Shown here: piece after piece, positions 15,230 through 25,533 of the stretch
Numbering within the stretch: position 1 is the first letter of the stretch
Layout of the letters: each line of letters begins with the position of its first letter
Source: Planctomycetia bacterium
Lineage (GTDB): Bacteria; Planctomycetota; Planctomycetia; Pirellulales; PALSA-1355
Direction of reading: 5' to 3'
DNA length: 41,481 nt
Assembly: GCA_016200205.1 (NCBI GenBank)
Contig: JACQFF010000325.1
Span: 1-41,481, forward strand
Position numbers and translations under genes: made by a program
Notes under the pieces: generated by a model
What the model was told of the DNA's origin: nothing
Seen by the model: the letters and a program-made list of their open reading frames with translations, nothing else
Database searches by the model: none

Positions 15230-16495
15230 TTGAGCCGATTTTTTCCATATCTCATCGGTCCGTCCAAGGGGCGATTCTGGGCGGCAGTTGGCGTGGGCGT
15301 CACTGCCGTGTTCGCTACGGCCTGGGCCTGCGCGGTGTGGCTTCCCTCCGTGGCCTGGATTGATTCCGCACCAAGTGCAAGCGAGACGGCGGTGCCGCAG
15401 GGGGATGGCGAGGCGCAGGGCGAAGGAAATCTGATCGTCCAGCTTGCATCGGCCGACTTAGCGCGCCGGATTGGGATCGAAACGGCGGCGGTCACCCGGC
15501 AAAAACACGCTCAGAACCTCGATGCCAATGCGGAAACGGCCTACAACGGGCAACGTACTGCCGAAGTGCTGGCGCGCGTCTCGGGAGTCGTCAGGGAAGT
15601 TCGCGTGGAACTCAACCAGGTCGTCCGGCGCGGCGACTTGCTGGCCGTCGTCGACTCTGCTGCTGTCGGGTCCGCCAAGGCACAGTATTTGACCGCCTTG
15701 GCAACGGTCAAGCTCGCCGAGGTCACGTACGAGCGCTACCACGCTCTTGCCGAGAAACAGATTGCAGCCGGCAAGAACGAGTTGGAAGCACTGACAGCCT
15801 TGACTCATGCGCGGACCGGGCTGTTGGAAGCCAAGCAGCATCTATTCAATTTCGGGTTCGCGCAGGCGGACCTCGATGCGATCCAGCGGGACGAGTCGGC
15901 GAGCAATCTACTTGATGTTGTTGCTCCGATTGCCGGCAGCGTCACGACCTGGGATGCGGCGTTGGGCGAAGCGGTAGAGCCAACCACGCAGCTTTTTGCG
16001 ATCTCCGACACGTCGCAATTCTGGCTCTGGATCGATGTGTACGAGTCGGATATCGCGTCCGTGGAAGTCGGCCAACCGGTCACGTTCAGAATCTCCAACA
16101 CGGACGTACCCGTGTTCGCCGGTCGGATCACGGCGATTGGCACGGAAGCCGACCGCACGACCCGCACAACACGGGTTCGGGCCCAAATCGCCAACAACAA
16201 CGGTCGTCTGCGGGCCAATGTCTTTGGGCGGGCACGGATCGAAATCACGCCAGAGCATGAAGCAATCACAGTCCCGACGGCCGCCGTTCAACACGACGGA
16301 AAACAGGAAATCGTCTTCTTGCCGGAACGGCCAGGCCGATATCGTCGGCAAACAGTGGTCACAAAACCAATGGATGAGGATGGCCTCTCCGAGGTCGTGG
16401 ACGGGCTGGAAACGGGCCAGCAGGTCGTAACGACTGGTTCCTTCCTGCTTTATTCCGAAATGGTCAAGGATCGGATCGCCGGAGACGTGGATTGA
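15230..16495 (+). CDS. RND efflux periplasmic adaptor, CzcB/CusB-like
   Basis: 421 residues if started at TTG 15230. An inner-membrane anchor lies at about residues 15-40 (FWAAVGVGVTAVFATAWACAVWL). The family core follows: a barrel-sandwich/lipoyl half-motif (GVVREVRVELNQVVRRGDLLAVVDS), a short helical hairpin (KAQYLTALATVKLAEVTYERYHALAEKQI), the second lipoyl half (VVAPIAGSVTTWDAALGEAVEPTTQLFAISD), then beta-barrel and membrane-proximal domains. It would link the inner-membrane pump to the outer-membrane channel across the periplasm. No metal-binding His/Met-rich N-terminal tail is visible. The TTG has no good ribosome site of its own; the strong site lies before ATG 15206, which is followed by an in-frame TAG. 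Translation may depend on reinitiation, or expression may be damaged. The pump gene follows in the same direction after 48 bases. Confidence 0.9.
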   Translation: MSRFFPYLIGPSKGRFWAAVGVGVTAVFATAWACAVWLPSVAWIDSAPSASETAVPQGDGEAQGEGNLIVQLASADLARRIGIETAAVTRQKHAQNLDANAETAYNGQRTAEVLARVSGVVREVRVELNQVVRRGDLLAVVDSAAVGSAKAQYLTALATVKLAEVTYERYHALAEKQIAAGKNELEALTALTHARTGLLEAKQHLFNFGFAQADLDAIQRDESASNLLDVVAPIAGSVTTWDAALGEAVEPTTQLFAISDTSQFWLWIDVYESDIASVEVGQPVTFRISNTDVPVFAGRITAIGTEADRTTRTTRVRAQIANNNGRLRANVFGRARIEITPEHEAITVPTAAVQHDGKQEIVFLPERPGRYRRQTVVTKPMDEDGLSEVVDGLETGQQVVTTGSFLLYSEMVKDRIAGDVD

Positions 16496-16543
16496 TGCGT
16501 TCGCAATAGCCTTCCTTGTATTGTGCCGTCTCGTCATCGCAAA

Positions 16544-19500
16544 ATGCTCAACAGCGTCATTTCTCTCAGCCTCAGGAACCGCTTCCTGGTCGTGCTTTTC
16601 GCGCTGGCCTTGGTTGGCATTGGCATCCGCTGTGCCATCGTGTTGCCGCTCGACGCATTCCCCGACACGACGCCGAATCAAGTGCAAATCAACGCGGTAG
16701 CCCCCGCCCTCGCACCGGAAGAGGTCGAGCGTCAAATCGCATTCCCCGTCGAGCTGGCTTTGGGTGGCCTCAAGGGGCTGCAGGAGGTGCGGTCGTCCTC
16801 GAAGTTTGGGCTCTGCCAAGTCGTTGCCACGTTTTCGGACGACACCGATATCTATTTTGCGCGGCAGCAGATCATGGAGCGGATGGAGGAAGTGGAATTG
16901 CCCGAGGGGATCGACCGCCCTCGCCTGGGGCCCGTCGCGACGGGTCTGGGCGAGGTCTATCACTACCGCTTGAGCAGCGATGTGTACGACCTGATGGAGT
17001 TGCGGACGCTGCAAGATTGGGTCATTCGTCCTCGCCTGCGCCGCGTACCCGGTGTCGCGGAAGTGAGCGCTTGGGGTGGCTTGGCGAAGCAGTTCGAAGT
17101 CCGCCACAGCCCCGACAAGTTGGCGCAGCATGGTTTGACGCTCGACGACTTGCTGCAGGCGCTGCGCGAAAACAACAAGAACGAGGGAGGCGGCAACATC
17201 GTCCGGGCCGGCATTGAGACGCTGGTTCAGGGAATCGGCCGGGCGCGCGACGTGGCGGATATCGAGGAAATCGTAGTTGCGACGCACGATGGCGTGCCGA
17301 TCCGCGTCAAGGACTTGGCTGAGGTGAAAATCGGCCACATGATCCGCCGCGGCGGTGTGACCGCCCAAGGACGCGGCGAGGTAGTGCTTGGCCAAGCGTT
17401 CATGCGCATGGGTGAGAACTCGCGCGAAGTGACGATGGCGCTTGACGAGGCCCTGGAAGACGCCAAAAAGGCGCTGCCGGCTGGTGTTGATGTCGAAGTC
17501 GTGTACCGCCGCACCGATCTGGTCAACAACGTGCTTCGCACCGCCGGCAAGAATCTCTTTGAGGGCGCGATTCTAGTAATCGCCATCCTCTTTGCCTTCC
17601 TGGGCAATCTTCGCGCGGGCCTGATCGTGGCGTCGGTCATTCCGCTGTCGATGCTCTTTGCCGTCACGATGATGGAACGGATAGGCGTTGCCGGCAGCCT
17701 CCTAAGCCTTGGAGCGATTGATTTCGGCCTGGTTGTCGATAGCTCGGTTGTCATGGTCGAGAACTGCGTCCGCCGGCTGGCTCACGATCGCACGACACGC
17801 CCGGAACTAGATGTTGTCCGCGAAGCCGCCATTGAGGTCCGCAAGCCCACCATGTTCGGCGAACTGATCATCATGGTCGTCTACTTGCCGATCCTCACGC
17901 TGGAAGGAATTGAAGGAAAGCTCTTTCGCCCGATGGCACTCACGGCCGTCTTTGCCTTGCTCGGGTCAATGATCCTTTCGCTGACGCTGATGCCGGTTCT
18001 GACCTCGCTCTGTCTGAGGCGATCCATGACCGACAAGCCGACGCGGCTTGATCGTCTGGCGCACTTCGTGTTTCAACCGCTGTTGCGCCTGAGTCTGCGG
18101 TTCCCCAAGACAACGCTCGTGGTGGTCGGCGCTATCACGATCGCGGCGACTCTCCTGGGACTCCGGTTGGGTTCGGAGTTCGTCCCGCGGCTGGAGGAAG
18201 AAGCGATCGTCATCACGACGATTCGCCTGCCCGGGGTCAGCATTGCCGAGTCGGTCCGCTACGGCACGTGCATCGAGCGCATCTTGCTGGAAGAATTTCC
18301 TGATGAAATCCAGCAGATTGCCAGTTTCGCTGGATCGGCTGAAATCGCCAACGACCAAATGGGGCCAGAAGTGACGGACGTTTTTGTGATCTTGAAACCT
18401 CGCAGTCAATGGACCAAGGCGAGGACTCAGGAGGAGCTTGTTGAAGCAATGGCCGACGTGACGGATCAGCTTCCCGGCATGCGGGCCGCTTACAGCCAGC
18501 CGATCGAAATGCGCATCAATGAGATGGACGCCGGGATTCGCACGGATTTGGGTATTAAGCTTTTCGGGGATGATTTGGAAGTGCTCAAGGAGAAGGCCGC
18601 CGAAATTGAACGGATCGTTCGCGAAATCCCCGGGGCTGCCGATGTGGGCACTGAGCAGATTAGCGGACAAACGATGTTGAGTGTCACGGCCAAGCGCAAA
18701 GCCCTGGCACGTTATGGCGTGTCGGCTCGACAAGTGCTCGACGCCGTGGGAACCGTCGGCGGGTTGAGGGTTGGAGAAATTCTGGAACCCGAGCGGCGCT
18801 TTCCATTAGTGGTCCGCCTCTCCCCTTCGCAACGGCATGACCCGATGGAATTGAAGCACGTCTTGATCGCGACGGCATCGGGACAGCGGCTACCACTCGA
18901 ACTGCTGGCCGATTTGCGGCGTGACGAAGGCCCGGCAACGATCCTGCGCGAATGGGGGCTGCGGCGCATCGTTGTGCAAGCTAATGTCCGCGGCCGTGAT
19001 CTTGGCTCGTTCGTCGACGAGGTCAAGGCCCGCCTCAAGGACGTGTCGCTGCCGGTCGGCTACACGATTGAGTACGGCGGCCAGTTCAAGAATCTGCAAC
19101 GCGCGGAACGAAGGCTGTATCTCGTAGTGCCGCTGGCGCTGGCCCTGATTTTTTGCCTTCTCTACCTCACGTTCTATTCGATTCGCGATGCGCTGATGAT
19201 CTCGACCGGCGTACTGTTCGCGCGAGTCGGCGGTGTGCTGGGGTTGTGGGTCATGGGGCTGCCCTTCACCATCTCGGCCGGGGTCGGATTTGTCGCGCTC
19301 GCTGGAGCATCCATACTGGAGGGATTGGTCCTGGTCAGCGCCATTCGAGACCGCGTTGCCCAGGGCGTCTCCAAACGCGAAGCGATCGAAGAAGCCCGTC
19401 TTGTGCGACTGCGCCCCGTATTGATGACGGGGACCGTCGCGGTACTTGGGTTCGTGCCCATGATGGTGTCCACGGGTATTGGAGCCGAAGTGCAGCGGCC

Positions 19501-19639
19501 CTTGGCAACGGTCGTGGTATTCGGCATCACCTGCGATACTTTTCTCACTATGCTCGCCCTGCCGGTCCTCTACCTCCTATTCGGGAAAGGACCGGCAATC
19601 GACGGCACTCACGTCGCGCTTGAAACGACCGGGGCTTGA
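16544..19639 (+). CDS. czcA: Heavy-metal efflux RND pump, CzcA family
   Basis: 1031 residues from ATG 16544 (MLNSVISLSLRNRFLVVLF), the usual family start. A GTG at 16523 is also in frame. It has the RND layout: a first TM helix (about 15-37), a large periplasmic loop with PDTTPNQVQINAVAPALAPEE, TM2-6, a second loop with QPIEMRINEMDAGIRTDLG, and the final TM bundle. TM4 carries DFGLVVDSSVVMVEN with D393, D399 and E406, whose spacing matches D402/D408/E415 of CzcA, the proton-relay residues of the zinc/cobalt/cadmium type. This favours divalent cations over copper/silver, although the CzcA-typical DG is DS here. The protein would pump metal ions outward using the proton gradient, with the adjacent adaptor and outer-membrane channel. 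No metal-responsive regulator gene is adjacent; the ArsR-like gene belongs to another operon. Confidence 0.94.
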   Translation: MLNSVISLSLRNRFLVVLFALALVGIGIRCAIVLPLDAFPDTTPNQVQINAVAPALAPEEVERQIAFPVELALGGLKGLQEVRSSSKFGLCQVVATFSDDTDIYFARQQIMERMEEVELPEGIDRPRLGPVATGLGEVYHYRLSSDVYDLMELRTLQDWVIRPRLRRVPGVAEVSAWGGLAKQFEVRHSPDKLAQHGLTLDDLLQALRENNKNEGGGNIVRAGIETLVQGIGRARDVADIEEIVVATHDGVPIRVKDLAEVKIGHMIRRGGVTAQGRGEVVLGQAFMRMGENSREVTMALDEALEDAKKALPAGVDVEVVYRRTDLVNNVLRTAGKNLFEGAILVIAILFAFLGNLRAGLIVASVIPLSMLFAVTMMERIGVAGSLLSLGAIDFGLVVDSSVVMVENCVRRLAHDRTTRPELDVVREAAIEVRKPTMFGELIIMVVYLPILTLEGIEGKLFRPMALTAVFALLGSMILSLTLMPVLTSLCLRRSMTDKPTRLDRLAHFVFQPLLRLSLRFPKTTLVVVGAITIAATLLGLRLGSEFVPRLEEEAIVITTIRLPGVSIAESVRYGTCIERILLEEFPDEIQQIASFAGSAEIANDQMGPEVTDVFVILKPRSQWTKARTQEELVEAMADVTDQLPGMRAAYSQPIEMRINEMDAGIRTDLGIKLFGDDLEVLKEKAAEIERIVREIPGAADVGTEQISGQTMLSVTAKRKALARYGVSARQVLDAVGTVGGLRVGEILEPERRFPLVVRLSPSQRHDPMELKHVLIATASGQRLPLELLADLRRDEGPATILREWGLRRIVVQANVRGRDLGSFVDEVKARLKDVSLPVGYTIEYGGQFKNLQRAERRLYLVVPLALALIFCLLYLTFYSIRDALMISTGVLFARVGGVLGLWVMGLPFTISAGVGFVALAGASILEGLVLVSAIRDRVAQGVSKREAIEEARLVRLRPVLMTGTVAVLGFVPMMVSTGIGAEVQRPLATVVVFGITCDTFLTMLALPVLYLLFGKGPAIDGTHVALETTGA

Positions 19640-19822
19640 TCAGAAATCACGGTAGCACCCCTGGTAGTGTTGCGTCAGCGGCGACGGCAAACCGAGCGCT
19701 GCCGCGACTTGCCCAGCAGCCCCCGTGGCCGCCGGGGCACTCGTGCGATGACCCGCAACAATGAGTCCATTTTGGCCAGAAACAGAGCGGCGAGGAACTC
19801 GACAGTTCGATTCCGGACGTGA

Positions 19823-20569
19823 TCACGATTTTTGATGTCGGCGCGATGCTTCCTGCACGGCGGCGATAGTGAAACCGCCCTGCAGATTCCCCTGCGAGTC
19901 GATGTAGCACCAGTCGTTAAGGTCCGAGAGGGCTACGCTGACTGTCGAGCCAAGTTTCAACGGCCCCAGGTTGGCAGGGTCGTTGGCCAGCATGCCATAG
20001 ACTTGATCTCCTTCCACCGCGGTAACTGTCAGCCAGATGAATTCGGTAGTACCTGAGTAGCTGACCGGCGCCTTAATGGAAAAGTTTTCGCCGGCAGTTC
20101 GTTCAAACGCGGTGACGAATTGCGGCCAGTTCCCTCGCGCCTTTGCCACAGCCTCCTGCATCAGGGGGTCGTCGGCCGAAACCGGAACGACGGGCAAAGT
20201 CAGTGTCGCCTGCAAAGCCGCAAGCGGGTCGTCTGACTGCAGGGCGCGTTCGGTCTCGTCATTGATGGAATAGGCTCTACTGGTATCGGGAACGTAAATC
20301 AGCAGGCAATTCTCGTCCAGGAACTCCGCGAACAGCTTCGCCAGCCTCCGGTAGCAGTCGGAAATCTCTCCGGCAGTCGTTGCACCGTCGACCCCCAGCG
20401 CGTCGCACGAATACCAGGCCTGATGTTCGCGGAATAACCGGCGAATGCGCAGATCGATGATGGACTCCGACGCCGCCTCGGGATCTTCCACGTACGGATT
20501 GGGCATGCAATTGACCAGGTACGGCTGGTTGCCGTACATAATCGTGTTGATTGGGCCAGCGCCGACCAC
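19823..20569 (-). CDS. DUF2314 domain protein
   Basis: 248 residues if started at GTG 20569, seven bases beyond the stop codon of the upstream PH-like gene. The frame stays open to 20734, but that stretch overlaps the upstream gene and reads as low-quality sequence. The C-terminal part (about 133-240) fits DUF2314: DDPLMQEAVAKARGNWPQFV, FSIKAPV, EFIWLTVTAVEGDQVYGMLANDP, LKLGSTVSVALSDLNDWCYID. The function of this domain is unknown. The N-terminal ~125 residues (GPINTIMYGNQPYLVN, HQAWYSCDALGVDGAT, DENCLLIYVPDT) form a separate conserved-looking region I cannot name. It converges on the pump gene, with a 183-bp gap that shows no clear terminator. Confidence 0.75.
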   Translation of the reverse strand: MVGAGPINTIMYGNQPYLVNCMPNPYVEDPEAASESIIDLRIRRLFREHQAWYSCDALGVDGATTAGEISDCYRRLAKLFAEFLDENCLLIYVPDTSRAYSINDETERALQSDDPLAALQATLTLPVVPVSADDPLMQEAVAKARGNWPQFVTAFERTAGENFSIKAPVSYSGTTEFIWLTVTAVEGDQVYGMLANDPANLGPLKLGSTVSVALSDLNDWCYIDSQGNLQGGFTIAAVQEASRRHQKS

Positions 20570-20573
20570 GAAC

Positions 20574-20918
20574 TCATTGATTGCCGGTCGCCTGTCGAAT
20601 TGGAATATTGTGGGCCGCCGCCTCCATGAGTATTGCTTCGGCGGCCGCTTCGCATACTGCGTTGTTGATTGGCACCTTGCTCGATCCGCCGACCTTTTTG
20701 TCGCAATTGAAGTAGTGGTTGGTGCGCCTGCCATACCGGCCGATGGTTGTCTCCGCCGAGACTCGTATTGCCTTAATGTCTGCGAATTGCAATGAATGGA
20801 CGGATGTGAGACCCCAAATGCCCGTTCGAATATGAAATCCGCGCTCGCTCACAACGGCGCGGTCTCGGAACAACGAGGGGGCCACCAGTGCTGTCGCAAT
20901 AGGTCCGATAAACACCAA
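20574..20918 (-). CDS. Short membrane-anchored PH-like protein, possibly N-terminally truncated
   Basis: 114 residues from TTG 20918 (GTG 20915 is equally possible). One hydrophobic segment (LVFIGPIATALVAPSLF) is followed by a beta-rich region with an alternating pattern (RAVVSERGFHIRTGIWGLTSVHSLQFADIKAIRVSAE), like bacterial PH-type membrane proteins, and a C-terminal helix (AVCEAAAEAILMEAAA). An in-frame TGA lies only eight codons upstream of the TTG, so a longer N-terminus with a second membrane helix, common in such proteins, is missing. It ends just before the DUF2314 gene, so the two may be co-translated. There is no recognised function. The start codon is weak and the gene may be a relic. 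Confidence 0.5.
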   Translation of the reverse strand: MVFIGPIATALVAPSLFRDRAVVSERGFHIRTGIWGLTSVHSLQFADIKAIRVSAETTIGRYGRRTNHYFNCDKKVGGSSKVPINNAVCEAAAEAILMEAAAHNIPIRQATGNQ

Positions 20919-20945
20919 GCCCCAGCGAGAGGTCGTTCTTGCTCA

Positions 20946-21407
20946 ATGAATCTCCATCGGAAGATGATTGCGTGGCGTCCGTTTGGCGACTCGAGAGCAT
21001 CTCGGCATTGCTACGGGCGCTTGGCCCCCATTGACAAGCTCGCGTGGCCCGACCGGCAATGCGATGTGCCGAAACTGGTGGGAATTCTCGATCAGATAGG
21101 GAACGAGCCAGACTTTTCTCCACCCACGGAACTACGCTGCACGTCGGAGCTCCTCGACGCTCGCGATTTAATGATGCGACTTGAGTGGGCCGTTCGTGAC
21201 GCAATACTCAACAGTCACGAGGTGGCATTCATTGCGGAGAAAAGTTCAAATCCCGTTGCCAGTCCCAATCGCAACCAACGACGGGATTTGATGTTACGAG
21301 AAGATCGGGGCAACTGGACGCCTATTGAACTTTTTTTGGCCGGCATCCGCGGCTGGGAAGGTGACTTTCGGCGAAGCTTGGCTGACGACAAGTCCAATTC
21401 ACAATGA
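20946..21407 (+). CDS. Orphan protein with C-terminal WTPIELFLAGIRGWE motif
   Basis: 153 residues from ATG 20946, which has GAGAGG about eleven bases upstream. A longer frame reaches 20796 but overlaps the divergent PH-like gene. I do not recognise the family. Visible features are a basic N-terminus, a central segment (PKLVGILDQIGNEPDF), a predicted helix (DARDLMMRLEWAVRDAILNSHEVAFIAE), a polar linker with SSNPVASPNRNQ, and a C-terminal motif WTPIELFLAGIRGWEGDFRR. A decayed copy of the last 100 bp lies at 13238-13345, which supports real coding here and suggests a multi-copy family. No membrane segment or catalytic motif is visible. It lies just before the SNF2 helicase in the same direction, but a functional link is not shown. 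Confidence 0.55.
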   Translation: MNLHRKMIAWRPFGDSRASRHCYGRLAPIDKLAWPDRQCDVPKLVGILDQIGNEPDFSPPTELRCTSELLDARDLMMRLEWAVRDAILNSHEVAFIAEKSSNPVASPNRNQRRDLMLREDRGNWTPIELFLAGIRGWEGDFRRSLADDKSNSQ

Positions 21408-21465
21408 TGGTTTTGGAGCCGGCAACCGGTTAAGATGCCGATGGCATGATGCGAATTCGTTTGTC

Positions 21466-23373
21466 ATGGAGCGGAATGGAGTCATGGACTCGCAGGTTGT
21501 TTCGAACGGTCGACCAGACAAATCCGAGATTGCCACACGCCCTGAGCCTGGGGCTTTGTCCGCCGATCGCTGGTTCACGCCTGGCGGAATCCCCGTTTCC
21601 TTTCGATCGGAGCCCTTCCTCGCCGGGCCCCGCACCACCGATCCACACGACCTTTGGCTGCATCAGGAACATGCCCGGCTGAGCCTGTTGCGGGGCTTCG
21701 ATGAGCTCTTGTGCCTGGAGGGTTTGAGGGGCGTCGAGCATTTGCCGCATCAGATCGAAACGGTGCGGAAAGTATTGCGACACTTTCACGGCCGCGTATT
21801 GCTGGCGGACGAAGTGGGTTTGGGGAAGACCATCGAGGCGTGTTTGCTGCTCCGCGAATATCTGTTGCGCGGCATGGCGCGGCGTGTGCTGATACTCGTG
21901 CCCGCACCGCTGGTGTCACAGTGGCACGAAGAATTGAGCGGCAAATTCGATCTGGAATTCACCATTCCGTCGAAGGGAGTCTCGGCCGACCGCGCCGAGT
22001 TCTGGGCAGGACACGACCGTGTGCTGGCGTCGCTGGCATTCGTGAAGACCAAGAAACGGGCCGCGCTGGCGACGGCCCAACCCTGGGACCTGGTCATCGT
22101 CGACGAAGCCCACCACTGCAAGAACCGCTCGACGCTGAATTGGCAACTCGTCAACTCGCTGCAACGGCGGTTCATGTTCCTGCTCTCCGCCACGCCCGTG
22201 CAGAACAACCTGCTGGAGCTCTACAACCTGCTCACGCTGTTGGCGCCTGGCCATCTGCGAACCGAGACCGATTTCAAGAAGCAGTACGTCAGACGCGGCA
22301 ACCCGCGCGACGCGCTCAACCGCGAAAGGCTACGATCACTGCTGGGCGAAGTGATGGTCCGCAACACGCGGAGCCTCGTGCAGCTCAATCTGCCTGCGCG
22401 TTACGCTCAAACCGTGCTGGCGAAACCCGAGGGAGCCGAGGCCGAGCTGTATCGCAAACTGACGGAATTCTTGCGCAGCCGCGGCAGCGGATTGGTGAAC
22501 GCGCGCGAGCCGACCGACGAAACGGCGGCGAACGACCTGGGCGATGTCGATCTGGCACCCGACGCCGCTAGCGCCACGACCGGCCTTCCAGCGTCCGTCT
22601 CGCGATTGCAGTTGAGCAGCCTGCTCGCCGCACAAGGCAGTCATCCCGTGACCGTGGCTGCGTCGCTCGAGCGCATCGCGGTTGCCGATCCCGAAGCGGC
22701 TTCGCTGGCACGTCTGGCCGCGTCGATCGGCGCGTCGGCGAAGGACGCTCGCTTGCTGGAGTTGGCTGAGCAGCCGCAGGGCCACAAGCTGCTGATCTTC
22801 GTCAACTTTCGTCGCACGCTGGCCCACATCCGAGGGATGTTTCAGTCGAGGGGCTTGGCGTTTTCGGTGTTCTCCGGCGAACAGACGGCGAAGGAAAAAG
22901 ATGAGGCGGTGGCGGCCTTTCACGACCGCGTGCCGATTATGCTCTGCACGGAGTCCGGCGGCGAGGGACGCAACTTGCAGTTCGCCGACACACTCATCAA
23001 TTATGACCTGCCCTGGAATCCGATGAAGATTGAGCAGCGGGTCGGCCGGGTGCACCGTTACGGCCAGACTCGAGAAGTGTTCGTTTTCAATCTCTGCACC
23101 GCCGACTCGTTGGAAGCACGCATTCTGAAGGTATTGAACGACAAGATCCGCATGTTCGAATTAGTCGTGGGCGAGGTCGGCTCGATCCTGGGAAACCTCG
23201 AAGACGGCGATCAGTTCGAGTCACTCGTGCTCAACCTTTGGCTCCGCTCTCGTGACGAAGTCGAACTGGAACAGTCGTTTGTGTCGCTCGGCGATACGCT
23301 GCTCGAAGCCCAAGAAAAATACGTGCAAGCCAAGGAATTGGACGAAGCGTTGTTCGGCGAGGATTTTCAATGA
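21466..23373 (+). CDS. SNF2/RapA-like superfamily 2 DEAH helicase or translocase
   Basis: 635 residues from ATG 21466; ATG 21484 is also possible, and the open frame reaches 21325 into the preceding gene. All helicase motifs are present: Q-like LPHQIETVRKVL, Walker A ADEVGLGKT with K121, Ia LVPAPLVSQW, DEAH at 213-216, III LLSATPVQNN, then the SNF2 C-terminal lobe with LIFVNFRRTLAHI, V ESGGEGRNLQFAD and VI QRVGRVHRYGQ (524-534). It should translocate on double-stranded DNA using ATP. It is shorter than E. coli RapA (968 residues) and lacks obvious RapA N- and C-terminal domains. An Ala-rich insert (about 345-440) separates the lobes. The stop overlaps the next gene by four bases, so the two products probably work together. 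Role open: RNA polymerase recycling, DNA repair or phage defence. Confidence 0.9.
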   Translation: MERNGVMDSQVVSNGRPDKSEIATRPEPGALSADRWFTPGGIPVSFRSEPFLAGPRTTDPHDLWLHQEHARLSLLRGFDELLCLEGLRGVEHLPHQIETVRKVLRHFHGRVLLADEVGLGKTIEACLLLREYLLRGMARRVLILVPAPLVSQWHEELSGKFDLEFTIPSKGVSADRAEFWAGHDRVLASLAFVKTKKRAALATAQPWDLVIVDEAHHCKNRSTLNWQLVNSLQRRFMFLLSATPVQNNLLELYNLLTLLAPGHLRTETDFKKQYVRRGNPRDALNRERLRSLLGEVMVRNTRSLVQLNLPARYAQTVLAKPEGAEAELYRKLTEFLRSRGSGLVNAREPTDETAANDLGDVDLAPDAASATTGLPASVSRLQLSSLLAAQGSHPVTVAASLERIAVADPEAASLARLAASIGASAKDARLLELAEQPQGHKLLIFVNFRRTLAHIRGMFQSRGLAFSVFSGEQTAKEKDEAVAAFHDRVPIMLCTESGGEGRNLQFADTLINYDLPWNPMKIEQRVGRVHRYGQTREVFVFNLCTADSLEARILKVLNDKIRMFELVVGEVGSILGNLEDGDQFESLVLNLWLRSRDEVELEQSFVSLGDTLLEAQEKYVQAKELDEALFGEDFQ

Positions 23374-24416
23374 CCGTTTCTGCCACCTCCCTCGATCGTG
23401 AATTGCAAACGTTTGCCGTCGAACTTTTCGAGCGCAGCGGCGGGGTTGCTGATTGGTTCACGCCGGATGCTCCCGGTGTGGTCGTGGTGCCGTCCAACCT
23501 GGCTGCCGCCGCGCTTCTGCCCGGCGAGGAGTTCTCGATGAGCACGGTGGTGGCTCCGGGAACGCTGCACGTCAGTCTTGCGGGCGATTTTCTGGACGTG
23601 GCGGCGCGGACGCTCGACGTAGCCGTGCCGCGCGACGGTTCGTTTTGCATCCCAGAACGCTACCTCACCAGCCGCGACCTGACCGACAAAATCGCTCGAA
23701 CCTTCGCTTGGCAAAACGTCCGCGCCAAATGCCGCGCGGCCGAACCTGCTTTGGTTCCCTACCACCTGTGGACTCTGCACGGCTCGCTCCGCTCGGAGGA
23801 CGTGTGGGAGGGCATCTTTCACATCGCAGTCAATGAGGAGACCCGGGCGACCGTTGAATTGCCCGACGTGTTTCAGGAGGCCGATCTGCTCGGTGACGAA
23901 GCGGCGAGTGCGCCGGGTGAACCGTCAACCTATACCGCGGTGATCGCGGAAGGCAAGCGGCGACTCATCGCGGCTTCGGCCGACTTCGTTCGCCGCATTG
24001 ATCAGCGTCTGGAGCGGGACCGCAAGCGGTTGCAGGACTATTATCGAGCATTGTCGCGCGAGGCAGACGGCTCGAAACGCCGCGCCGCGACGGTCCAATC
24101 CCCCGACGAAATCGCGGCTAAGAAGCGAGCGGTCGACCTGGAGTTGCGGCGCAAGCTGGCGGAACTGAACGAAAACTACGCCTTGCGAGCCCAGCTACGA
24201 CCACTGGTCGTGGCACGGGTCCGTCTTCCGGCGCTCGTCGTGCCCGTCGTGATTCAGAGGAAACAAGCCAGCCGCGACTACCGCTTGTATTGGAACTCGC
24301 TGCTCAAGAACGTTGAGCCGCTGGCTTGCAGCCGGTGCTATCGCGCAACGCTTTCAGCGACCTTCACCAATGAGACCGTCGATCTGCTTTGCACCTCCTG
24401 TGCGGGAGGAACGTGA
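23370..24416 (+). CDS. Helicase partner protein with coiled coil and C-terminal zinc ribbon
   Basis: 348 residues. The ATG overlaps the helicase stop (ATGA). I do not recognise a named family. The N-terminal ~180 residues look globular and beta-rich (PGVVVVPSNLAAAALLPGEEF, LHVSLAGDFLDVAARTLDV, then WEGIFHIAVNEETRATVELPDVF). A charged helical region at about 190-280 (KRRLIAASADFVRRIDQRLE, LRRKLAELNENYALRAQL) should form a coiled coil. Two CxxC pairs end the protein: C320/C323 (CSRCYRAT) and C341/C344 (CTSC), a likely zinc ribbon. A DNA- or protein-binding adaptor for the helicase is the simplest reading, inferred from gene overlap. The stop is followed by about 180 bp without genes, then the terminator of the opposing tRNA. 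Confidence 0.8.
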   Translation: MTVSATSLDRELQTFAVELFERSGGVADWFTPDAPGVVVVPSNLAAAALLPGEEFSMSTVVAPGTLHVSLAGDFLDVAARTLDVAVPRDGSFCIPERYLTSRDLTDKIARTFAWQNVRAKCRAAEPALVPYHLWTLHGSLRSEDVWEGIFHIAVNEETRATVELPDVFQEADLLGDEAASAPGEPSTYTAVIAEGKRRLIAASADFVRRIDQRLERDRKRLQDYYRALSREADGSKRRAATVQSPDEIAAKKRAVDLELRRKLAELNENYALRAQLRPLVVARVRLPALVVPVVIQRKQASRDYRLYWNSLLKNVEPLACSRCYRATLSATFTNETVDLLCTSCAGGT

Positions 24417-24598
24417 TCCGACATTCCTTCGCGAGCCAATGCGTCTTTCACCAAATTTCCAGCAGTGTCGGCAAGCACGCCCCTTTTGAACCGCACTATC
24501 TCACGTGGCGCCAATCCTTTGCGATGTCTGTCGAAGGAAACCCCTGACTTTCTGTGACTCGGTTGAATTGCCGCCTCGGTGACGCAACTCGTGTCTGC

Positions 24599-24636
24599 AA
24601 AATGAGAAAGCCCTTCGATGTTCTCGCCGAAGGGCT
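24599..24636 (-). terminator. Rho-independent terminator after tRNA-Pro
   Basis: A perfect 9-bp stem (AGCCCTTCG with CGAAGGGCT, at 24628-24636 and 24609-24617) with a 10-base loop is followed on the minus strand by a T-rich run (TTCTCATTTT). It starts about 16 bases after the tRNA 3' end. It may also end the helicase operon transcript from the other side. Confidence 0.7.
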
Positions 24637-24651
24637 CGTTTCTAGCAATAG

Positions 24652-24726
24652 TCGGGGCGACAAGATTTGAACTTGCGACCTCTGCGTCCCGAACGCAGCG
24701 CTCTAGCCAAGCTGAGCTACGCCCCG
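24652..24726 (-). tRNA. tRNA-Pro (CGG)
   Basis: A 75-base cloverleaf on the minus strand. The acceptor stem CGGGGCG (24720-24726) pairs with CGCCCCG (24653-24659), with discriminator A at 24652. The D arm reads TAGCTCAGC. The anticodon arm CTGCG-TTCGGGA-CGCAG gives anticodon CGG (proline, codon CCG). The T arm carries GTTCAAATC. CCA is not encoded; the next bases are CT. A consensus promoter precedes it and a terminator follows. Confidence 0.95.
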
Positions 24727-24747
24727 TGGATTCTGCTGAAGGTACGT

Positions 24748-24775
24748 ATTCTACAGGCCTCACGACTGCGGTCAA
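24748..24775 (-). promoter_or_regulatory. Sigma-70 promoter of tRNA-Pro
   Basis: On the minus strand, TTGACC (24770-24775) and TAGAAT (24748-24753) are spaced by 16 bases and lie about 20 bases upstream of the mature tRNA 5' end. Position and both hexamers fit a primary-sigma promoter. Confidence 0.65.
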
Positions 24776-24823
24776 CGGCGATTGAATAGCCCTTGAAGCC
24801 CTTTGAACACGCGGTAGAACCGC

Positions 24824-25480
24824 TTACGAAGGCTCCGCTTGCGCTCCCACAAGCGGCACAAAACGACAGCCCGAGAGCCACTCCGCATCCAAGCGGCCGC
24901 CAACCTTGTGAAAGGCTCGCAACACTTGTCCCTGACTGTCGCCAAGCGGAATCACCAAGATGCCGCCTTCCGAAAGTTGGGCCTCGAGCGCGGGCGGGAT
25001 GTGATCGGCGGCCGCTGCTACCATGATGCGATCATAGGGCGCCTGCTCAGGCCAGCCGAGCGTCCCATCCGCGACAACTAGCTCTACATTCGTATAGCCA
25101 AATTCGGCCAAGGCGAGTTGTGCGCGGCGCGAAAGCTCTTCGTGACGCTCCAGGCTGACCACGCTCGAGGCAAGTTCGGCCAAAAGTGCCGTTTGATATC
25201 CGCTCCCCGTGCCGATCTCCAGTACCCGCTCGACACCGGTCAATTGCAGAGCTTCGCTCATCAGGGCCACGATATAGGGCTGGCTGATCGTTTGGCCGCA
25301 GCCGATTTGCACCGCCCGGTCGGCATAGGCCAGGAACTCCCAATCCGGCGGAACGAAGCGCTCGCGCGGCACGCGGTCCATCGCGGCGAGCACCTGCGTC
25401 GATTTGATTCCTCGCTCGACAAGCTGCCGCAGCATGGCTTGCCGCGCGGGTTCGAATGATGGGCTGCTGTGTATGGACAT
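24824..25480 (-). CDS. pcm: Protein-L-isoaspartate O-methyltransferase
   Basis: 218 residues from ATG 25480. The frame is open to 25960, but that is only the antisense side of recJ. The enzyme uses S-adenosylmethionine to methylate L-isoaspartyl residues of aged proteins, starting their repair in the cytoplasm. Family signatures are visible: FVPPDWEFLAYADRAVQIG near residue 50, GCGQTISQPYIVALM at about 60-74, SAM motif I VLEIGTGSGYQTALLA at about 86-101, VVADGTLGWPEQAPYDRIMVAAA in the middle, and GGILVIPLGD towards the end. The length is normal (about 210). It follows recJ on the same strand after 53 bases, and cotranscription is likely. Confidence 0.96.
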   Translation of the reverse strand: MSIHSSPSFEPARQAMLRQLVERGIKSTQVLAAMDRVPRERFVPPDWEFLAYADRAVQIGCGQTISQPYIVALMSEALQLTGVERVLEIGTGSGYQTALLAELASSVVSLERHEELSRRAQLALAEFGYTNVELVVADGTLGWPEQAPYDRIMVAAAADHIPPALEAQLSEGGILVIPLGDSQGQVLRAFHKVGGRLDAEWLSGCRFVPLVGAQAEPS

Positions 25481-25533
25481 CACGGAATTATACGCGTCCG
25501 CAGGCCCCGGAGCACGAGACCCCCCGCCGATGC

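Follow-up and report, generated by a model that had tools for sequence, protein, structure and literature searches.

An apparently mobile SNF2 motor-partner gene pair of bacteria and haloarchaea: a probable RapA/BrxHII-type translocase delivered as two chains

What kind of machine is encoded where the gene of an SNF2 helicase runs into that of a small, cysteine-bearing protein, and what purpose does it serve? The question arises from a planctomycete draft genome (G000; 4.96 Mb, 328 contigs, ~96% complete), one contig of which (C140), analysed over its full 41,481 nucleotides, is called the window here. An earlier note on this DNA had singled out the two genes as a candidate undescribed two-gene system. 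The first gene and its overlap with the second comprise the following features:

21466..23373, forward strand: SNF2/SF2 motor gene, 635 aa from ATG 21466, stop 23371-23373, assigned from Pfam domains and SF2 motifs
21817..21831, forward strand: Walker A motif GLGKT, residues 118-122 (K121), in the motor sequence
22102..22113, forward strand: DEAH box, residues 213-216, in the motor sequence
23035..23067, forward strand: motif VI QRVGRVHRYGQ, residues 524-534, in the motor sequence
23370..23373, forward strand: ATGA stop/start overlap of the motor and partner genes, four bases shared

The motor is complete, as the note had it, with K121, the DEAH box and motif VI in their places, all other SF2 motifs present (among them SATP at residues 241-244 and TESGGEGRN from residue 495) and both Pfam domains recognised (SNF2-rel_dom, E 8e-37; Helicase_C, E 3e-22). 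By homologue comparison, translation could start equally well at ATG 21466 or at 21484 (residue 7), and the open frame extends back to 21325. The nearest named families by profile are DrmD (254.6-257.6 bits), BrxH (233), DpdE (228) and RapA (216), with all scores far under the curated cut-offs wherever a family has one, as in the case of the RapA equivalog model (215.6 bits, cut-off 576) and the DrmD model (257.6 bits at best, cut-off 950). By these matches the motor is assigned to the RapA/BrxH/DrmD type of SNF2 proteins, and no N-terminal Tudor pair is evident in it. The earlier exclusion of the DISARM system stands: in addition to the low DrmD score, neither DrmA, DrmB, DrmC nor a methylase was found among the neighbouring open frames. 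The four-base overlap, read correctly in the note, recurs identically in several homologous pairs and likely couples translation of the two genes. The second gene is made up as follows:

23370..24416, forward strand: partner gene, 348 aa, distant YqhG-family relative, assigned from sequence and profile comparisons
23370..23738, forward strand: partner N-terminal domain, residues 1-123, which resembles the post-motor region of long BREX-related SNF2 helicases and is not confidently modelled
23739..24218, forward strand: partner residues 124-283, RapA C-terminal-domain-like, with strands, two long helices and a strand in a low-pLDDT model
23922..24176, forward strand: two long helices or coiled coil, residues 185-233 and 245-269, predicted, with R220, Y224 and Y225 found family-wide
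24327..24401, forward strand: C-terminal zinc-ribbon-like CxxC...CxxC (C320/C323 and C341/C344), from the sequence

The length of the partner and its two cysteine pairs are as first described, and the coiled coil reported with them corresponds to the two long helices, which are predicted in a model of low confidence. The window partner matches no family in Pfam, NCBIfam or the PDB sequences and gives weak matches, confined to the coiled-coil region, in PADLOC and PHROGs; weak matches to Cas12f/Cas12u4, apolipoprotein, RasGAP and similar proteins were dismissed as coiled-coil or chance. The window partner has the two CxxC pairs that a zinc ribbon requires, as do most homologues, while some carry extra ones and five cyanobacterial plasmid partners have none, and by this distribution the putative ribbon is an optional tag on the domain rather than the core of the family. 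Over 31 aligned partners R220 and Y224 are invariant, and Y225, E231, P287, W308, E316 and C320 are nearly so. The Halorhabdus partner is part of a 1095-aa fusion protein that also contains many consecutive cysteine-rich repeats resembling zinc fingers (L090:9698-12985), and in Haloferax lucentense a large unannotated open frame of ~1378 aa matches the partner (L126:11251-15384).

Relatives of the partner occur in 10 of the 97 genomes of a set from the same order (the window's own genome counted); across the phylum, a family profile detects them in 29 of 392 genomes. Beyond planctomycetes, homologues are encoded on five cyanobacterial plasmids, a Rhodovastum plasmid and haloarchaeal plasmids, while the viral contigs and phage records searched yielded no relatives. 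In 34 of the 41 bacterial loci examined, the gene immediately upstream of the partner is a co-oriented SNF2 gene, most often separated from it by a few bases or overlapping it by as many. The Rhodovastum plasmid, counted in addition to these loci, likewise has an SNF2 gene directly before the partner, and the pair is present in all eight haloarchaeal plasmids read. Of the seven exceptions, L014 and L077 are contig ends, L073 and L081 are fragments of the partner, and L075, L078 and L079 are longer weak matches from one genus. The note would have given up the system if adjacency had been rare in related genomes or if the partner had belonged to a family with a housekeeping role; adjacency turns out to be the rule, in line with a helicase that has a dedicated partner, and no housekeeping role is known for the partner. 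A partner profile built without haloarchaeal members recovers seven of the eight haloarchaeal partners (E 6e-6 or better), which align with the bacterial partner family from end to end, non-coiled parts included (probability 98.4%, E 9e-15). The distances of motor and partner are closely correlated over 26 pairs (Mantel r 0.94, p 0.0001), in all of which the partner diverges more than the motor from the window copy. Both proteins evolve under purifying selection, as judged by a dN/dS of ~0.06-0.13 (motor) and ~0.10-0.26 (partner); in the more distant comparisons, saturation affects part of the synonymous sites. Since homologous pairs in the same order are tightly linked in many genomes and dN/dS is low, the pairing is not due to chance, and motor and partner are, on this comparative evidence, a real conserved two-gene unit that spans bacteria and haloarchaea.

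Three further observations concern these loci. In genus g174 (L075, L077, L078, L079), proteins of ~420-560 aa have a C-terminal part that is weakly partner-like (50-67 bits); none has an SNF2 gene directly adjacent, with L077 at a contig edge and the SNF2 gene of L079 2.7 kb off. In two genomes of family f63 the SNF2 motor is split into two overlapping frames (L068:7966-9746, L070:2679-4536), by either an assembly-error frameshift or decay. Finally, genes for inorganic-carbon transporters of the DabA/DabB type are found near the pair in two unrelated planctomycete lineages, at the following places:

L051:12613-19680, DabA/DabB-type genes
L066:5661-10307, DabA/DabB-type genes
L069:3872-8518, DabA/DabB-type genes
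L070:6655-11337, DabA/DabB-type genes

The pair is absent from a genus-mate and two family-mates of the window's genome that were sampled (G001-G003). Between the window and G034, a genome of another family, the pair has a dS of 0.62-0.82 and a third-position identity of 64%, compared with 1.70 and 44%, respectively, for recJ of the same two genomes, and motor identity ranges from 84% down to ~43% among genomes at similar recJ distance. This indicates that the pair has been shared more recently than the genomes that carry it, and by these measures it belongs to the accessory genome and travels as a cassette from one lineage to another. Two features next to the window pair bear on how it may have arrived:

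24548..24667, forward strand: 40-aa C-terminal remnant of a large serine recombinase, overlapping the tRNA-Pro 3' end
24651..24726, reverse strand: tRNA-Pro (cgg), putative integration site

The remnant is 70% identical (E 2e-10) to an intact 510-aa large serine recombinase of the family-mate G002, which abuts tRNA-Pro(cgg) at the same site, in the order recJ-PCMT-tRNA-Pro (L137:8758-10290). G023 has the same remnant at a different tRNA-Pro, with the pair 5 kb away; the G034 pair comes immediately after a tRNA-Leu. No direct repeat of the 3' end of the tRNA, which beyond the pair would mark the far end of an element, was found within 16000-25500. Part of the remnant could be host sequence flanking the tRNA, a reading that is disfavoured, if not settled, because the remnant recurs at several sites per genome. 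Genomes of the order each have several sites at which the end of the recombinase gene and the tRNA 3' end occur together (window 24563-24671), which suggests that a tRNA-using family of elements is widespread. The pair might help its carrier element to replicate, persist or transfer, and in favour of this are the recombinase remnants and tRNA genes just described, as well as two Nostoc plasmids in which the pair adjoins ParA/ParB and Oscillatoria, where relaxase genes precede it. However, the surroundings of most planctomycete pairs show no recognisable genes for integrases, replication or transfer, in f63 the pair can adjoin amino-acid and purine genes, and we regard a role of this sort as improbable.

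What the partner contributes is indicated by three lines of comparison, the first of which leads to the YqhG family. One homologue of the partner, L062, passes the cut-off of PF11079 (27.5 bits, cut-off 25) and another, L008, matches the same region weakly, while the window partner itself is below detection. By these scores, the window partner is considered a distant relative of YqhG and not a member of the family as defined by PF11079. In Bacillus subtilis yqhG adjoins the SNF2 gene yqhH, according to deletions described in PMC6123443, and YqhH is an SNF2 protein named HepA/RapA and listed among the RNA polymerase (RNAP)-interacting translocases (PMC7385302). The direct adjacency of an SNF2 gene that characterises YqhH-YqhG is also seen in the window. 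Since L062 matches YqhG and yqhG adjoins yqhH, the layout of the pair was not undescribed, contrary to the note, whose statement that the partner fits no nameable family is true of the window protein in Pfam and NCBIfam but not of its homologue L062.

The second line leads to RapA and BrxHII. In both, a 2026 survey describes an SNF2 motor followed by an alpha+beta domain and then a C-terminal domain, whose sheet has five strands, the fourth and fifth of them separated by two long helices (PMC12839542). The predicted secondary structure of the partner, with strands, two long helices and a strand, agrees with this C-terminal layout. When the full-length partner model was structurally re-aligned, RapA 807-964 ranked first, against model residues 124-283 (Z 6.4, rmsd 3.7, 134 residues; next unrelated row 4.8), a match under the safe-match level; the idea of a split RapA had been set down before this re-alignment. 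The partner models have a pLDDT of 52-54. RapA was absent from the listing when VIA-align was run with the isolated domain, so that the full-length match was not reproduced, and Foldseek gave zero significant matches with either the full model or residues 118-290. The structural likeness to the RapA C-terminal domain is thus suggestive only. The third line is provided by profiles: hhalign matches columns 15-166 of the partner profile to the region behind the motor in long BREX-related SNF2 proteins (probability 91%, E 9e-7), whereas profiles of the RapA C-terminal region, built from one or two sequences, gave no significant match to the partner, the window's genome has no match to RapA_C (PF12137), and similarity to DrmD-like C-termini is limited to the coiled coil. 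One local hhalign run was discarded, as its scores were uncalibrated and reversed controls scored nearly as high for short profiles. By the searches described, the partner is probably the half that follows the motor in RapA/BrxHII-type SNF2 enzymes, here encoded as a separate protein. In view of the low pLDDT, the failure of the isolated domain and the non-significant RapA profiles, the claim is one of a probable split architecture and not of RapA membership. The earlier remark that RapA's extra domains are missing from the motor holds for that protein by itself, but counterparts of the RapA post-motor domains appear to reside in the partner.

Alternatively, the two proteins might merely share an operon and the likeness of the partner to RapA be a coiled-coil coincidence; the structural match is indeed weak and was not repeated, and coiled coils inflate similarity. 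Such an account fits poorly with pairing in two domains of life, with the co-divergence of motor and partner and with end-to-end homology of the partners that includes their non-coiled parts, and the odds seem to us strongly against it. We find it reasonably probable that the pair is one RapA/BrxHII-type SNF2 translocase cut into two chains, with a zinc ribbon added, an architecture that is supported but not proven. The two genes would then specify a single SNF2 translocase, from the RapA/BrxHII/DrmD branch, that uses ATP to move along double-stranded DNA; its first chain would be the bare motor and its second would supply the post-motor parts, namely the N-terminal alpha+beta domain, the C-terminal sheet with two long helices and the added ribbon. 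Translational coupling would keep the synthesis of the chains in step, and the chains would assemble into a single RapA-like particle, in which the conserved motor would track on DNA and push or strip bound proteins, while the faster-evolving partner may set the site and the target of action.

What purpose a split RapA/BrxHII-type translocase would serve can be approached from its neighbours, which the note had proposed to inspect for defence genes. In six of eight haloarchaeal plasmids a DUF1156 methylase lies within ~10 kb of the pair, in two of them together with a DUF499 ATPase, and HNH or PD-(D/E)XK genes are nearby in several. DUF499, a DUF1156 methylase and an SNF2 helicase make up a published BREX-related system, so that the haloarchaeal pair seems to occupy the helicase slot of such a system, which makes a defence role possible, but not shown, for the pair. 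The neighbours of planctomycete pairs are ordinary and varied (AcrB, FHIPEP, SecA, DabA families, among others), with at most 4 of 65 defence-like by raw count. The absence of a methylase asserted in the note is borne out at the window pair, beside which no methylase, DUF499, PglZ or nuclease was recognised, and for the DUF1156 type throughout the window's genome, but it does not extend to the haloarchaeal pairs. The pair may be a stand-alone anti-invader unit, or the helicase, in split form, that a BREX-related system has kept after losing its methylase and ATPase partners. The haloarchaeal neighbourhoods argue for this, as do horizontal transfer, the fast evolution of the partner and the toxin-antitoxin, partition, mobilisation or integrase genes near the pair on bacterial plasmids. 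By contrast, the window pair has neither nuclease nor methylase, defence-like neighbours are few in planctomycetes, and the plasmid context is partly an artefact of searching a plasmid collection. We give this possibility tentative credence, just short of an even chance.

A different purpose is suggested by RapA itself: the pair could dock on RNAP as RapA does, backtrack or release stalled or post-termination complexes, and thereby aid survival of DNA damage. This would suit the RapA-type motor, the ordinary planctomycete neighbours, a genome that encodes no RapA_C protein and the listing of YqhH as RNAP-interacting, an assignment that rests partly on work with E. coli RapA (PMC7385302). Moreover, B. 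thuringiensis survives UV less well when yqhH is deleted, and purified YqhH has ATPase activity (PMC10054049). However, of the RapA residues known to contact RNA polymerase (PMC8501970), L216, V217, L220, R226 and L229 are replaced by mostly polar or acidic residues in 18 split motors, in which conservation is also lacking at R502, R524, E527 and R545, so that neither the FTH patch nor the salt-bridge residues are retained, which counts against a docking mode identical to that of RapA. The window motor also has no evident N-terminal Tudor pair, the pair is patchy and transferable, unlike a core transcription factor, and a newer review names YwqA, not YqhH, as the B. subtilis counterpart of RapA (PMC12448304). 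Genetic conflict, that is, restricting or surviving invading DNA, is therefore favoured as the purpose, tentatively, over polymerase recycling, which we think unlikely, or the clearing of obstacles. A bolder proposal, more doubtful still, is that of a cross-domain family of mobile two-component RapA-type translocases that act as stand-alone anti-invader units, in which the fast-evolving zinc-ribbon partner would read the targets and of which the versions in Bacillus and in BREX-related systems would be specialised offshoots.

If the split architecture is correct, RapA, the BREX-type helicases and the poorly characterised Bacillus yqhH-yqhG would be one architecture that exists in both fused and split forms, the YqhG family would gain a probable place, and a mobile cassette would be flagged for surveys of defence and conflict. 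With the split form, the role of the poorly understood post-motor domains of RapA and BrxHII could be tested by adding or withholding one protein.

Among known systems, DISARM DrmD is the top single profile match of the window motor, but at 254.6-257.6 bits it is far under the cut-off of 950, DrmD is one long chain, and no other DISARM gene accompanies the pair. E. coli RapA, a single-chain RNA-polymerase recycling ATPase, has a related motor (215.6 bits), and its residues 807-964 rank first for partner residues 124-283 in the low-confidence model. It differs in that the window system consists of two chains, has no evident Tudor pair, does not conserve the polymerase contacts and does not match RapA_C. 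BrxHII of type-3 BREX and the BREX-related helicases have the same order of parts, in which SNF2 is followed by the alpha+beta domain and then by the C-terminal sheet and its two long helices (PMC12839542), and haloarchaeal pairs are found in DUF1156 or DUF499-DUF1156 neighbourhoods; the window version, however, is split, and methylase, DUF499, PglZ and nuclease genes were not recognised beside it. With Bacillus YqhH-YqhG, compared via the Pfam family and the published gene order, the differences are that the window partner is below detection by PF11079 and that most planctomycete partners end in a putative zinc ribbon, while in both cases the SNF2 and partner genes are adjacent, and one planctomycete partner, L062, passes the YqhG cut-off.
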